Origin: Deltaproteobacteria bacterium
Lineage (GTDB): Bacteria > Desulfobacterota > Desulfobaccia > Desulfobaccales > Desulfobaccaceae
Length of the DNA stretch: 41,995 bases
Reading direction: 5' to 3'
NCBI GenBank assembly: GCA_019309545.1
Contig: JAFDGA010000018.1
Coordinates: 1 to 41,995 of the forward strand
The notes beneath the pieces are model-generated. The model was not told the origin of the DNA, searched no databases, and worked only from the letters and a program-made list of their open reading frames with translations. Positions 22,897 to 32,188 of this stretch are shown here, one piece after another (the stretch's first letter is position 1; each line of letters opens with the position of its first letter). Both the position numbers and the translations under genes were made by a program.

Positions 22897-25203
22897 TTAC
22901 CTTCGCCGCCACACCGGCCCCTGTTGGGTATCGATCACTTCAATACCCTGGGCGGCCAATTCCTGGCGGATCTGATCCGCCCGGGGCCAATCCCGCTGAC
23001 GCCGGGCTTCCTCCCGGGCCTGGATCTGGGCTTCAATGGTGGCATCTTCAACCGGCTCAGGGATGTTCATGATCCCTAAGATCTCGTCCAATTCCTGGAA
23101 GCGGACCAGAATGGCTTGGGCTCCTGCCTGGTCGAGACGGTTCTGGTCCATCAGTCCATGCCCGACCTTCAAAAAATTAAAGAATGCCGCCAATGCCTGG
23201 GAAATGTTCAGGTCATCGTCCATAGCCGCCATAAAATCCTTCTTTAATTGGAAAAGCAGCTGATCAAGCTCTGGAAAATGACCCCCGCGGCGTACCTGGG
23301 CCAGACGATCCAGGAAAAAATCGAGTCGTTGGCGACCACGGCGAGCCGCGTTTAGGCTGGCTGGCGTAACCTGGAGCGACTTGCGATATTGCGTGGCCAT
23401 CAGAAAATAGCGCAAATCTTCCCCCCGAAACCCTTGTTCCAGCAGTTCCCGCACTGTACTGTGTCCCTGACCTTCGGGGATTTTGCGGCCCTCACAAAGA
23501 ATGCGTTCACTATGGAGCCAATAACGGGCCAGCGGTTTTCCCGTAGCGGCTCCACAGATAGCCGTGACGTTTTCATGGTGGGGAAAGATCTGATCCAAAC
23601 CACCGGCATAGATATCGATAGTCTCACCCAACTGCTTCAGAGCCATGGCAGCGCATTCCAGGTGCCAGCCCGGACGGACATTGCCCCACTCGGTGGCATA
23701 ATAAAGGCCGCTTTTCAATTCCCCCAGTTTGGCCCTTTTCAGCAAGGTGAAATCCCGGGGATTATCCTTTTCATACTCGTCCAGATCAACGGTTTTACCT
23801 AGCCGGATCTTGGTCAGATCGATGCGGGACAGCTTGCCATATTCCTTAAAGCGGGAAATATCGAAATATACCGAGCGCAGTTTTTCATAAGCGTAGCCCC
23901 GATCCATCAGACGCCGGGTAAGGGCCAGCATACCATCGACATGCTCGGTAGGACGCGGATAAGCAGTGGCGGGCTTCAATCTTAGTGCCTTAAGATCCTT
24001 AAAGAATTCTGTGGCATAGTGCCGCGTGAACTCTGTTATCGGCTGTCCAGCCGCGGCCGCGCCCTGAATGGTTTTATCGTCTAAATCAATCAGATTGACC
24101 ACCAGGCGGACCGCCAATCCCTGATATTCGAGATAGCGCCGCAGCAGATCGACCATTACCAACCGCCGCGCCCCGGTAAGAGAGAGATGGGCATTCATGG
24201 TAGGCCCATCGGTATAGATAGTTACTTCGCCAGGCTTAAGGGGAGAAAAGGCCTCTTTCTGACGGGTCAGGGTATTGTAAAAAACCAGGGAGGGCTTCTC
24301 TTTTTCAGCAAATAAAGGAGTCGACAGATAACGTTCACCGCCATCCGGGCAGATAGCGACAATCAGTCCCTGTGCCAATTCCTGAGCCAGTCTTAAGGCC
24401 ACGGCTACTGCCGCCCCGGAACTCATTCCCAAGAACAGGCCTTCGTCCCGGGCCAGGCGGCGCGTGGTTTCAAAGGCTTCCTCGTCCTCGATGTTGACAA
24501 TGGCATCGGCCTGGGTTTTGTCAAAGATGCCGGGTTTATAAGATTCCTTCATATTTTTGAGGCCTTGCAGTTTATGGCCTAAATAGGGTTCGACTCCGAT
24601 GATTTGCACCGCGCGATTAAGTTCCTTGAGTCGCCGATAGGTGCCCATCAGCGTGCCGGTAGTCCCCATGGTAATGACCACCATACTGACCTGGCCCTCG
24701 GTCTGATCCCAGATTTCCTGAGCCGTACCATAATAGTGGGCCAGAGGATTGCTGGGATTGTTAAACTGATCAGGCAAATAATATTTTTCCGGGTGTTCCC
24801 GGACCAGTCGGTAGACCTCTTCAATGGCACCGTCGGTCCCCAGTGCGGCCGGGGTCAAGAGTAGTTCGGCGCCCAGGGCCTTGAGGATGATTTTGCGCTC
24901 CTGACTGGCCGATTCTGGCATGGCCAGCAGCAGGGGATAGCCTTTCACGGCACAGACCATGGCCAGGCCGATGCCGGTATTGCCGCTGGTTGCCTCAATA
25001 ACCGTCTTGCCTTTGGTCAGTTCCCCGCGGGCCTCGGCATCCTGGATCATGGACCAGGCCACCCGATCTTTGATAGAGCCCCCCGGGTTGAAACTTTCAA
25101 GTTTGACATAGATTTCTACATCGGGGTTGGGATTGAGGCGATTGAGACGGACCAGCGGGGTCCGGCCAATGAGTTCGAGGATATTATTATAACATTGGCG
25201 CAT
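22897..25203 (-). CDS. Cysteine synthase fused to a cysteinyl-tRNA synthetase-like domain with lost catalytic motifs
   Basis: This is one 768-residue frame. Residues 1-305 are a PLP-dependent O-acetylserine sulfhydrylase: PLP lysine K45 in 'GGSIKDR', 'ATSGNTG' (71-77), the phosphate loop 'MGTTGTLMG' (179-187), and 'GMSSGAA' (259-265). Residues 306-768 align along the full length of CysRS, down to the C-terminal 'RRQRDWPRADQIRQELAAQG' and 'VWRRR'. The key sites are altered: the zinc Cys of 'VCGPT' is D332, HIGH is S341-L-T-G344, and KMSKS is K574-I-P-E-G578. C517 ('GWHLEC') and H542-H-E-N remain. The first half should make cysteine; the second half should not charge tRNA, so a normal CysRS is expected elsewhere. 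What the second half does is unknown. Confidence 0.9.
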   Translation of the reverse strand: MRQCYNNILELIGRTPLVRLNRLNPNPDVEIYVKLESFNPGGSIKDRVAWSMIQDAEARGELTKGKTVIEATSGNTGIGLAMVCAVKGYPLLLAMPESASQERKIILKALGAELLLTPAALGTDGAIEEVYRLVREHPEKYYLPDQFNNPSNPLAHYYGTAQEIWDQTEGQVSMVVITMGTTGTLMGTYRRLKELNRAVQIIGVEPYLGHKLQGLKNMKESYKPGIFDKTQADAIVNIEDEEAFETTRRLARDEGLFLGMSSGAAVAVALRLAQELAQGLIVAICPDGGERYLSTPLFAEKEKPSLVFYNTLTRQKEAFSPLKPGEVTIYTDGPTMNAHLSLTGARRLVMVDLLRRYLEYQGLAVRLVVNLIDLDDKTIQGAAAAGQPITEFTRHYATEFFKDLKALRLKPATAYPRPTEHVDGMLALTRRLMDRGYAYEKLRSVYFDISRFKEYGKLSRIDLTKIRLGKTVDLDEYEKDNPRDFTLLKRAKLGELKSGLYYATEWGNVRPGWHLECAAMALKQLGETIDIYAGGLDQIFPHHENVTAICGAATGKPLARYWLHSERILCEGRKIPEGQGHSTVRELLEQGFRGEDLRYFLMATQYRKSLQVTPASLNAARRGRQRLDFFLDRLAQVRRGGHFPELDQLLFQLKKDFMAAMDDDLNISQALAAFFNFLKVGHGLMDQNRLDQAGAQAILVRFQELDEILGIMNIPEPVEDATIEAQIQAREEARRQRDWPRADQIRQELAAQGIEVIDTQQGPVWRRR

Positions 25204-28369: not shown

Positions 28370-28398
28370 TTGACAAGTATTCATCTGTTTAGTATACA
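28370..28398 (+). promoter_or_regulatory. lexA promoter
   Basis: TTGACA (28370-28375), 17 bases, TATACA (28393-28398): a near-consensus sigma-70 promoter. Transcription would begin about base 28405, the A of the lexA ATG, so the mRNA may be leaderless. Confidence 0.7.
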
Positions 28399-28399
28399 G
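28385..28399. promoter_or_regulatory. Candidate LexA operator overlapping the -10 box
   Basis: CTGT-N7-ACAG (CTGTTTAGTATACAG) overlaps the -10 box of the lexA promoter. E. coli LexA sites are CTGT-N8-ACAG, so spacing differs by one and the site may be lineage-specific. Autoregulation of this operon is inferred. Confidence 0.45.
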
Positions 28400-28404
28400 T
28401 GATC

Positions 28405-29019
28405 ATGCGAGCACTGACGGATAGACAGCGGGCGGTATTGACCTTTATAGAAGAGTTCTGTCACCAGCAGGGCTATCCGCCTACGGTGCGGGAGGTGGCG
28501 GCTCACTTCGGCATCCAGCCCCGGGCCGCCGCCGACCATCTCAGTGCCCTGAAGCGCAAGGGCTATCTCCATCGCGAGCCCGGGCGCTCTCGAGGTCTGG
28601 CGTTGCGGTCGCGCAGCCTGGGCAACACGGTGGAGGTGCCGCTGCTGGGTCAGATTGCCGCGGGGCGGCCGCTGTGGGCAGTGGAACAGATCGAGGACAC
28701 CATCCCCTTGCCCGAGGCCTGGGTACGCGGGGACGAGGTCTTTCTCCTGCGGGTCTCTGGCGACAGTATGGCCCCGCTGCTGTTGCCGGGCGATCTGGTG
28801 ATCGTCCGGGTCCAGTCCCAGCTGGGACGGGGAGAGATCGGCGTGGTGCGGTGGGGCGAGGAGGCTACCATCAAGCGGGTTTATCAGGAGCCGGATGGGC
28901 TGGTGCTGAAAGGTGACAACCCGGATTTTGCCCCGCTGCGACTCACTCCGGAGCAGGCGGCTCAGGTCCAGGTGCTGGGCCGGGTGATCGGCGTCTATCG
29001 CGCCCTGGGGGCAGCGTGA
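28405..29019 (+). CDS. lexA: SOS repressor LexA
   Basis: ATG 28405 is chosen (204 residues); a GTG two codons earlier overlaps the -10 box region. The N-terminal winged HTH reads 'LTDRQRAVLTFIEEFCHQQGYPPTVREVAAHFGI' (short blocks). The self-cleavage site is A86-G87 ('IAAGRP'), with catalytic S121 ('SGDSM') and K158 ('ATIKRVY'), so it should be cut when RecA is active. Like E. coli LexA (202 residues) in size. The stop is 9 bases before the RecA-like gene, so the four genes lexA to polB form one unit. Other LexA targets lie outside the window. Confidence 0.95.
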   Translation: MRALTDRQRAVLTFIEEFCHQQGYPPTVREVAAHFGIQPRAAADHLSALKRKGYLHREPGRSRGLALRSRSLGNTVEVPLLGQIAAGRPLWAVEQIEDTIPLPEAWVRGDEVFLLRVSGDSMAPLLLPGDLVIVRVQSQLGRGEIGVVRWGEEATIKRVYQEPDGLVLKGDNPDFAPLRLTPEQAAQVQVLGRVIGVYRALGAA

Positions 29020-29028
29020 GGCCTGGGG

Positions 29029-29703
29029 ATGGGTGCAGCCGGAACCTGGAAATACTGGTTAGCGACCGCGAGCGCGGGGCAGGGATTACTGCTTTTTGGG
29101 GAGACTATCCGGCCTCTGGTAGCGCCGGCCGCGGTCTGGGCCACGGCCCGCGGGGCTAAGGTCCTGGTCGTGGACGCGGTCGGGGCTTTCGATCCCTATC
29201 ATCTGGCCCGGGAGGCCCGCTTTCGGGGACTGGTGCCGGCCAAGGCCCTCGACCAGGTGCGGGTCGCCCGCGCCTTTACCTGTCATCAGTTGGTCCGGTT
29301 GGTGCGGGAGAGTCTGCCCGCTGAACTGGCCGCTATTCCCAGCCCGGAGGGCGGTACCCCCCCTGCCCTCTTGCTCCTGCTGGGTCCTTGTTCCTTATTT
29401 TATGATGAACAGGTGCCGCTGGCCGAACGGCGCCAGCTCTTTCAGACCTTGGTCCACGGACTGGCACAACTCAAGCCCCGAGCCACTATCTGGCTGCTGC
29501 AGCCCTGCCTGCCCCAGGTGATTCCTAATCGCCATTTTGGCCGCGGGCTGGCGCCGCTGGTCGATATTATTCTGGAACTGCGCTGGGGGCGGCACGGCCC
29601 CTATCTGCAACCTCGACCGTGCTTGAGCCACCGGGCCGGGTCTTATACCAGTTTTAGTGCCAGAGGCAACCAACCGAAAACCGACAACCGGAAACGGTAT
29701 TAA
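29029..29703 (+). CDS. Degenerate RecA-like protein (ImuA-position protein)
   Basis: This 224-residue protein starts 9 bases after lexA. It has a RecA-type core pattern: hydrophobic strand 'GLLLFGETIRPLVAPAAVWATARGAKVLVVDAVGAFDPYHLAREARF' (blocks), then 'VRVARAFTCHQLVRLV' and 'ALLLLLGPCSLFYDE' as the later strands, ending in a 'LVDIILELRW' strand. At the P-loop position the sequence reads FGETIRPL, lacking GK[T/S], and the Walker-B-like strand lacks an Asp at its end. ATP hydrolysis is therefore unlikely. ImuA proteins occupy this place in lexA-imuA-imuB-dnaE2 cassettes and are RecA-derived too. I infer an accessory role for the polymerase two genes later. Confidence 0.7.
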   Translation: MGAAGTWKYWLATASAGQGLLLFGETIRPLVAPAAVWATARGAKVLVVDAVGAFDPYHLAREARFRGLVPAKALDQVRVARAFTCHQLVRLVRESLPAELAAIPSPEGGTPPALLLLLGPCSLFYDEQVPLAERRQLFQTLVHGLAQLKPRATIWLLQPCLPQVIPNRHFGRGLAPLVDIILELRWGRHGPYLQPRPCLSHRAGSYTSFSARGNQPKTDNRKRY

Positions 29704-29715
29704 CTGGGAGTATTT

Positions 29716-30000
29716 ATGGGTCGCACTGTCCTGCCTTACAGTCAGGTCCTGGAACAGGAAAAACTGCGCTGGCAGAAATTCCGCCGGGCCTTGCGCCGGG
29801 AAGATCAGGCCCAGTTAGACCGCCTCTTTGAACTGGCCCGGCTCCATACCCAGGCCGGGGTCTATGCCTCGCAGCCCTGGCCCCTGGAGGTCATCCTGAT
29901 GTCTATGCTGCTCGAGCATCAGAAGGCCCTGGAGGCCCTGGAGGAGCGGCTCCGGCGCTTAGAGGGAAGCGGGGATGGAGACCACGGCCTGGCTCTTTGA
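29716..30000 (+). CDS. Small coiled-coil protein between RecA-like and PolB genes
   Basis: This 94-residue protein starts at ATG 29716 behind GGGAG and ends inside the polymerase gene (26-base overlap), a strong sign of coupled translation. It is nearly all helix: 'LEQEKLRWQKFRRALRREDQAQLDRLFELARLH' and 'LLEHQKALEALEERLRRLE' (heptad-like blocks), with a central 'QPWPLEVILMSMLL' segment. No known motif is seen. It may link the RecA-like protein and the polymerase. The unit order is visible; the function is not. Confidence 0.6.
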   Translation: MGRTVLPYSQVLEQEKLRWQKFRRALRREDQAQLDRLFELARLHTQAGVYASQPWPLEVILMSMLLEHQKALEALEERLRRLEGSGDGDHGLAL

Positions 30001-32188
30001 CCTCTATCCTTTGGAATCCCGGATGGTGCTCTGGTTCGTCACTGCGGCCGGCCAGCGCCTCCGGGTAACCGACAGTTTTACCTATCGGATTTATGTCCAC
30101 GGCCCCCAGCCGAAGTTGCGGAGCCTGGCCGCCCACCTGAAAAGCCGCGCCCCGGCCAGCCGCTGGGTTAAGCGAACCTATATGGACCAGGGGATGGAAC
30201 TCTGGCAGGACCAGAGGCTGGACGTGCTCTGCCTGGAACTCCGGGTCTATGGTGACCTGGCACCGCTGTTGGCCTACCTGGGAACCTGGGACGCGGAGCT
30301 AGCGCTTTATAACTGCGACCTCAGTATTCCGGTCTATTATCTCTATGAAAAAAAACTCTTTCCCTGTTCCTGGTACCGCCTGGAGACCACCGGGGATCAG
30401 CTTGACCGTCTTAGCCCGCTGGAGCATCCCTTTCAGGAGGAGTTTGTCCTACCCTCCCTGAGGACCATGACCATCTCTCTGACCCGGGACCCCCTGATCC
30501 CGCTGGAGGCGGGTAACTCCCTGGCCCTTACCTGGGAGGGCCAGACGCTGGAGTTGGAGGCGGCCAGCCCGGCCGAACTGGTGAGCGAGGTGACCCGGCA
30601 ACTGGCCCGCGGCGATCCGGATCTGGTAATCAGCGACTGGGGCGATGAACGCATCATCCCCGCCCTGTGGAACTGGAGCCGCCGCTACCATCTGGACCTG
30701 CCGCTGGACCGGGAGCCGCGGCCGGTCTCCCGGAAGCTCAGCCTGCGGGGGCGGTCTTATTTTTCTTATGGCCGCATCGTTTATCAGGGTCCGGCTGCAC
30801 CTTTTCAGGGCCGCTGGCACGTGGACCGGCGCAACTCCTTTTTTTATCGGGAGGCCGGGATACCCGGCCTGGTGCAACTGGCCCGCCTCGGCCAGATGCC
30901 CCTGCAACAGGTGGCCCGGGCCAGCCCCGGGACCCTGATCACCTCCATGCAACTGGCCCAAGCCGTGGCGGACCGCATCCTCATCCCCTGGCGCAAAGGT
31001 GAGCCGGAACGGTTCAAGAGTGCCGCCGAACTCTTGGTATCGGATAAAGGGGGACTGGCCTTCCTGCCGCCGGTGGGCTGCCATACCCAGGTGGCAGAGC
31101 TCGACTTTGCCTCGATGTACCCGACAATTATGGCGATTCACAATATCTCGCCGGAAACCGTCAATTGCCGGTGTTGTTCCAGCCCCCGGGTCCCGGAAAC
31201 CGGCTATACCCTGTGCCAGCGGCGGGAAGGGCTGGTGCCTCGCACCCTGAAGCCGATCCTGGCCTTACGGGCCCGGCTCAAGACCCGGGCCTGCCAGGCA
31301 GAGGGAGAAGCGGCGGCGGAATTCAATGCCCGCCAGAATGCCCTTAAGTGGATTCTGGTGACCTGTTTCGGCTATCTGGGTTACAAAAATGCCCGGTTTG
31401 GGCGTATCGAAGCCCACGAGGCCGTAACCGCCTTTGGCCGGGACAAACTCTTGACCGCCAAAGAAATCTGTGAGGCTGCGGGTTACAAGGTGCTCCACGG
31501 GCTGACCGATTGTCTGTGGATTCAGAAGCCCGACCTGCAGGAGGTCGAGATCAGAGAGCTGTGTGACCGGATTACCGAGGCTACCGGGGTGACCATGTCT
31601 CTGGAAGGCATCTACCGCTGGGTGGCGTTTTTACCCTCCCACAATCAGGCCGACCGTCCGGTAGCCACCCGTTATTTTGGGGTTTTCCAGGATGGCCGCC
31701 GCAAGTGCCGGGGGCTGCTGTGCCGCCGCCGGGACACCCCGCCCTTGGTACGCCGGGCCCAGGAGGAGCTGTTGGCGCTGCTGGCCCGGACCGCGGGTTG
31801 GGATCACGGCCACCCTCAGGAGACGGAAATCCAGGAATTGATCACTGACTATCGTCTCCGGTTGGAGCAGGGTCAGCTCCGGCCTCAAGACCTGCTAATT
31901 ACCAAGGTATTGTCACAACCGCTGGACCACTATCGGGTAGAAACCCATACCGCTCTGGCCGCTCGGCAATTGGAAGCGGCCGGGATAATGCTGAAACCAG
32001 GAGAAAAGGTGCGCTATGTAGTCCGGGACCGGCAGGCGCCCCCGGAAAGCCGGGTGCTGGCGGCCCCCTTCCTGGACCAGTTGGATGGCTATGACACCGC
32101 TTATTATGTGGAGCTTCTGGCGCGGGCCGCCCAGGAGGTGCTCTCACCTTGGAAAAATAATAGTGAGTTCAGCAGATTATCTACTTGA
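29975..32188 (+). CDS. Family B DNA polymerase with degenerate exonuclease
   Basis: This 737-residue protein has the PolB palm: motif A 'ELDFASMYPTIM' (D377), motif B K458 followed by 'VTCFGY' (N and S of KxxxNSxYG replaced by V and T, Y by F), and motif C 'LTDCLW' (D512 kept, first D replaced by L). The exonuclease motif I position 'VLCLELRV' lacks the D-x-E pair, so proofreading is probably absent. C398-x2-C401-x12-C414 follows motif A, a place where Pol epsilon carries an iron-sulfur CysX motif. It resembles the bacterial PolB group described as related to Pol epsilon (from memory). Lying in a lexA operon suggests damage-induced, possibly error-prone synthesis. Confidence 0.85.
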   Translation: METTAWLFDLYPLESRMVLWFVTAAGQRLRVTDSFTYRIYVHGPQPKLRSLAAHLKSRAPASRWVKRTYMDQGMELWQDQRLDVLCLELRVYGDLAPLLAYLGTWDAELALYNCDLSIPVYYLYEKKLFPCSWYRLETTGDQLDRLSPLEHPFQEEFVLPSLRTMTISLTRDPLIPLEAGNSLALTWEGQTLELEAASPAELVSEVTRQLARGDPDLVISDWGDERIIPALWNWSRRYHLDLPLDREPRPVSRKLSLRGRSYFSYGRIVYQGPAAPFQGRWHVDRRNSFFYREAGIPGLVQLARLGQMPLQQVARASPGTLITSMQLAQAVADRILIPWRKGEPERFKSAAELLVSDKGGLAFLPPVGCHTQVAELDFASMYPTIMAIHNISPETVNCRCCSSPRVPETGYTLCQRREGLVPRTLKPILALRARLKTRACQAEGEAAAEFNARQNALKWILVTCFGYLGYKNARFGRIEAHEAVTAFGRDKLLTAKEICEAAGYKVLHGLTDCLWIQKPDLQEVEIRELCDRITEATGVTMSLEGIYRWVAFLPSHNQADRPVATRYFGVFQDGRRKCRGLLCRRRDTPPLVRRAQEELLALLARTAGWDHGHPQETEIQELITDYRLRLEQGQLRPQDLLITKVLSQPLDHYRVETHTALAARQLEAAGIMLKPGEKVRYVVRDRQAPPESRVLAAPFLDQLDGYDTAYYVELLARAAQEVLSPWKNNSEFSRLST

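Follow-up and report, generated by a model that had tools for sequence, protein, structure and literature searches.

Our analysis indicates that a genome of the Desulfobaccaceae carries a bacterial PolB2 mutasome operon that is, with high probability, under the control of its own LexA. The operon lies in the window, the whole 41,995-nucleotide stretch of contig JAFDGA010000018.1 that was analysed. Since its PolB2, iRadA, and PPB2 proteins show the features published for the PolB2 mutasome, we identify the locus from its sequence hallmarks as a bacterial PolB2 mutasome operon (iRadA–PPB2–PolB2) with lexA, and not as a new cassette. Makarova 2014 described the four-gene lexA form in Leptospirillum ferriphilum (LFML04_0990-0993; PMC4104785), Timinskas 2025 found iRadA–PPB2–PolB2 to be the only bacterial order and lexA to be enriched near bacterial polB2 (PMC11791011), and a 2026 survey lists PolB2 as bacterial group G2 (PMC12926913). 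The window has the same four genes as this published system, in the same order and with the same inactivation pattern, MGRT arm, DK loop, and xTD motif, but in a new host lineage, the Desulfobaccaceae. To this published picture we add a conserved operator-like element that appears to be unique, in a genome that lacks competing polymerases; as far as we found, published descriptions of PolB2 mutasome operons assign no SOS box to them.

The four-gene operon and the hallmarks of its proteins

The genes lie on the + strand, the first three separated by 9 and 12 bases and the last two overlapping by 26 bases, and the order, common strand, and spacing given in the initial annotation proved exact to the base.

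28370..28398, + strand: lexA promoter, with −35 TTGACA (28370-28375), a 17-base spacer, and −10 TATACA (28393-28398)
28376..28393, + strand: putative LexA operator AGTATTCATCTGTTTAGT, an imperfect dyad of ACTAWACANNTGTWTAGT that overlaps the spacer and the beginning of the −10
28405..29019, + strand: lexA, assigned from LexA equivalog TIGR00498, Pfam, residues, and single copy
29029..29703, + strand: iRadA, with a RadA/Rad51 core fold, after a 9-base gap from lexA
29716..30000, + strand: PPB2 (arCOG07300 family), a 94-aa helical protein starting MGRT, after a 12-base gap from iRadA
29975..32188, + strand: PolB2 (bacterial group G2), a family B polymerase, with a 26-base overlap with PPB2

LexA matches TIGR00498 at 183 bits (cut-off 111), is encoded by a single copy in the host genome (2.43 Mb, 99% complete), and has all of its autocleavage residues: the A84-G85 cleavage site, Ser119, and Lys156. 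Relatives conserve the ATG at 28405 as the start codon; an alternative in-frame GTG at 28399 is possible, yet it directly abuts the −10.

In described PolB2 mutasomes, iRadA lacks the N-terminal domain and has an inactive ATPase site (PMC11791011). The protein encoded here matches Rad51/RadA weakly by sequence (3e-4 and 1.2e-4), and its AlphaFold model (pLDDT 81) matches RadA/Rad51 structures in the PDB with Z of about 20 over 183-187 residues; for RadA, Z is 20.4 (rmsd 2.6, 183 residues). Residues 4-201 of the model align with residues 117-333 of RadA, and the N-terminal helical domain is absent. A scan of the protein found no GxxxxGK[ST] Walker A motif, and alignments show LLG at the position of the Walker B aspartate. 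Taken by motif and modelled fold, the protein is an inactive RadA/Rad51 paralogue and not ImuA; its earlier description as a RecA-fold protein lacking a P-loop thus holds.

The small third protein and the family B polymerase with a damaged exonuclease, both reported previously, are likewise borne out, the former as the helical PPB2 and the latter with a decayed exonuclease site. PPB2 proteins are about 90 aa long with an N-terminal MGRT arm predicted to enter the polymerase cleft (PMC11791011); in our alignment of 17 homologues, MGRT is invariant across bacteria, Leptospira phages, and one haloarchaeon, where the copy is on a plasmid. The published hallmarks of PolB2 are loss of the first DxD aspartate and of the exonuclease, together with a D(K/R) pair that is conserved in the loop preceding motif A (PMC11791011). 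The polymerase of the window matches DNA_pol_B at 4.7e-29, and its model matches archaeal family B polymerases in the PDB by fold. Motif A reads DFASMYP at 377, and motif C reads HGLTDCLW, with LTD at 510-512 instead of DTD, so that the first aspartate is gone: an alteration of the catalytic motif beyond what the initial annotation had noted. The exo II motif YNGDNF.FP is replaced by SDWGDERIIP, and inspection by eye of the exo I and III regions found neither DxE nor YxxxD. The DK loop is present as SDKGG (D357-K358) and is invariant in 11 aligned bacterial PolB2s, and motif A and the second motif C aspartate are invariant across the bacterial PolB2s aligned. A β-clamp motif in iRadA or at the PolB2 C terminus occurs in a fraction of PolB2 mutasome members (PMC11791011); by eye, no clear QLxLF-like tail was recognised in either protein here.

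The host genome contains no Y-family gene (PF00817; the control was positive in 11/14), one C-family DnaE with no second DnaE, and one family B match, and Y-family genes are also absent from six same-family genomes. On this complement, PolB2 would be the candidate for any bypass synthesis by a dedicated polymerase and, among the Y, B, and C families, may be the genome's only dedicated bypass polymerase.

The lexA promoter and the reach of LexA

The TTGACA box and 17-base spacing of the lexA promoter recur in 27 lexA promoters from related genomes, where 28 columns spanning the operator-like element carry 42.5 bits. A scripted search of these 27 promoters for dyad symmetry placed the best long centre in the middle of the element. 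More distant relatives have the almost perfect ACTAAACANNTGTATAGT at the same position relative to TTGACA, and the element of the window is symmetric only imperfectly. The pattern was derived from lexA promoters, so its presence there is by construction and its absence elsewhere is the real test. Sixteen genomes have a single exact match each, in every case upstream of lexA (by 447 bases in one of them), with 2 control hits in 59 genomes; in the host genome the exact match falls solely at the lexA promoter. The initial annotation had proposed a mutasome-like unit that is linked to SOS and contains a B-family polymerase, and that reading of function stands, with SOS control drawing its support from this conserved operator-like element.

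How far the control extends is a separate matter. We see an even balance for the proposal that LexA acts as an ordinary global SOS repressor, the PolB2 genes being one of its many targets, and that its operator looks unique only through an overly strict pattern; this proposal is compatible with a PolB2 mutasome operon under its own LexA, because it concerns the regulon and not the identity of the operon. It is consistent with LexA being a standard cleavable protein and with the survival of lexA in four relatives that lack an intact PolB2, two of which retain a whole or partial iRadA relic. Because lexA outlives PolB2 in these four, LexA must there serve something else, or be on its way out. 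Against a global role, allowing two mismatches in the host genome gave operator hits in no excess over a reversed-pattern control, allowing one mismatch in 30 genomes gave 10 non-lexA sites versus 20 control hits, and inspection of recA of the host genome revealed no such site. The regulon was examined by pattern searches only, and weaker or different operators may occur elsewhere. Since the element was not found elsewhere above chance in the host genome or its relatives, the mutasome and LexA itself may constitute the whole LexA regulon. More tentatively, and with appreciably less than even confidence, we suggest that LexA here is a private switch rather than a global SOS regulator: its sole recognisable operator would lie in its own operon, and its regulon would be one transcript, from which the genome's sole dedicated bypass polymerase, an enzyme of archaeal origin, is made. 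In sister genomes this transcript also encodes a membrane protein with one span, a possible SOS effector.

The −10 at 28393-28398 predicts a transcription start near 28405, which is the lexA ATG, and the lexA message may therefore be leaderless; the same geometry between −10 and lexA ATG recurs in lexA promoters of the order. A second conserved operator-like site in several members of the order, CT[CT]NTCATWTGTATAGTAT, precedes a ketoacyl-ACP synthase III-like gene at the five readable loci (L147, L149, L150, L152, and L153, near base 1500); its left half is a misfit, and it was treated as a promoter coincidence.

Both same-genus genomes (L082 and L083) lack lexA, PolB2, and Y-family polymerases, and are apparently SOS-less and devoid of dedicated bypass polymerases.

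Linkage in relatives and origin of the cassette

A PolB match was found in 29 of the 59 genomes searched, a few of the weakest (22-30% identity) being other B-family enzymes. Within the Desulfobacterota, lexA, iRadA, PPB2, and PolB2 occur together, in one order and on one strand, in nearly every related locus with a long enough contig; this four-gene order is far beyond chance. The initial annotation had called for a search for conserved linkage, and the order is indeed kept, with lexA, in related genomes. One genome has other genes inserted between iRadA and PPB2.

Members of the sister family encode a protein of 60-70 aa between iRadA and PPB2 (L121:3380-3589, L122:2797-3015, L123:1073-1279, and also L092 and L090). 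It has one C-terminal membrane span (..LPEDA..YL.EILKFLGTVALI..TGLLLLLAG), has no Pfam match, persists where PolB2 has been lost, and is absent from the window. Because it sits within the lexA operon, our guess is that it could be an SOS cell-division inhibitor. PolB2 proteins of the same sister family (L043, L092, L093, and L022) have variable inserts, in frame and roughly 10 to 110 aa long, in a CxCC...C loop, at about residue 402 of the window protein; the reading frame stays open, and the inserts resemble translated intergenic repeats.

The GC content of the cassette is 62-67% and that of its neighbours 48-57%, making the cassette about 10 points richer. This contrast, the absence of the cassette from both same-genus genomes, and the presence of PolB2 and PPB2 on Leptospira phages would fit a recently acquired mobile or phage-derived island. 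We consider such an origin unlikely, however: the copies in relatives are GC-rich as well, genomes of the same family and order carry the cassette near the same yacP-like gene, and the phage copies are only 35% identical. The equally GC-rich same-family copies near the yacP-like gene led us to reject recent horizontal gain as the main explanation, and because relatives hold such copies at that place, the evidence favours the cassette as an old resident of the order rather than a recent arrival.

Other routes were considered and set aside. The two same-genus genomes have a different gene set after yacP and showed no clean join that would mark an empty site. Plasmid spread was rejected, as iRadA has no plasmid match and the plasmid relatives of PolB2 are mainly haloarchaeal (about 30% identity), as was viral spread, with one clear PolB2 in IMG/VR (36% identity). 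A defence system was also rejected, as the polymerase region gave the one PADLOC hit, to a model for a large homing endonuclease. In LE1-type Leptospira phages (L118:4736-7259 and L119:4724-7448), an MGRT-starting PPB2 directly precedes a PolB2 (35% identity), and the deposited PPB2 gene model misses the MGRT start.

Proposed mechanism and comparison with related systems

For the PolB2 mutasome operon under its own LexA, we infer LexA binding, induction, complex assembly, and bypass activity as follows. In the undamaged cell, LexA would sit on the dyad between the −35 and −10 and block the single promoter, keeping the four genes low. Upon DNA damage, LexA, stimulated by RecA filaments, would cleave itself at Ala84-Gly85, and transcription of the four genes into one mRNA would follow. 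PolB2, with no working proofreader and an altered DTD, would then assemble with one iRadA and a PPB2 trimer, in line with the modelled PolB2–iRadA–PPB2(3) heteropentamer (PMC11791011); it would grip iRadA in the manner of a Rad51 subunit–subunit contact, and one MGRT arm of the PPB2 trimer would lie in the cleft near the PolB2 active site. The complex would extend mispaired or lesion-blocked primer ends, giving survival at the cost of mutations, and LexA produced from the same mRNA would restore repression once the damage is gone. Both SOS control and mutagenesis are proposed here with backing from the genetics of Dpo2 in Sulfolobus: in Sulfolobus islandicus, Dpo2, in which the first aspartate is also missing, is published as damage-inducible and solely responsible for targeted mutagenesis. 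The Sulfolobus genes for Dpo2 (PolB2), a RadA-like protein, and an arCOG07300 protein belong to the same three protein families as those of the window, but their control is archaeal (Orc1/Cdc6 linkage), whereas here it would be exerted by LexA.

The replacement of the first motif C aspartate by leucine (LTD) and the loss of the exonuclease site could instead mean, as the family was read in 2014 (PMC4104785), that PolB2 is catalytically dead and that the complex, instead of performing translesion synthesis, serves as a scaffold or regulator in the clearing or restart of stalled forks. This seems improbable to us, given that Dpo2, also without the first aspartate, is needed for damage-induced mutation in S. 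islandicus, and that the invariance of motif A and of the second aspartate in bacterial PolB2s would be unexpected had polymerisation been lost.

Among bacterial systems, E. coli Pol II (PolB group G1) is also an SOS-inducible B-family enzyme; it consists of one subunit, and its exonuclease and DTD are intact, whereas the PolB2 of the window is without both. The lexA-imuA-imuB-dnaE2 cassette is likewise LexA-linked and combines an inactive RecA-family subunit with an error-prone polymerase, an activity that would apply here by inference; its polymerase is of the C family rather than B, ImuB is absent here, the accessory protein differs, and the two are not homologous as units. That the operon is a variant of the ImuA–ImuB–DnaE2 mutasome, despite the like plan of lexA, an inactive RecA-family protein, a small accessory protein, and a polymerase, is very improbable indeed, as all three proteins match PolB2, PPB2, and iRadA with their own archaeal history, the RecA-like protein is RadA/Rad51 by fold, and the genome encodes neither ImuB nor a second DnaE. 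The likeness to lexA-imuA-imuB-dnaE2 drawn in the initial annotation, which had noted the lack of ImuB, thus survives as an analogy, but the locus is not an undescribed variant of that cassette; it represents the separately described PolB2 mutasome, whose origin is archaeal.

What is known of bacterial PolB2 mutasomes comes solely from sequence and modelling, and this lineage offers a clean test case. With a single lexA and a single operator, and with neither a Y-family polymerase nor a second DnaE, any damage-induced mutagenesis should run via PolB2, and control by LexA can be tested directly thanks to the conserved operator.

Elsewhere in the window, 22897-25203 holds a 768-aa fused gene that, from sequence only, reads as a cysteine synthase joined to a cysteinyl-tRNA synthetase.
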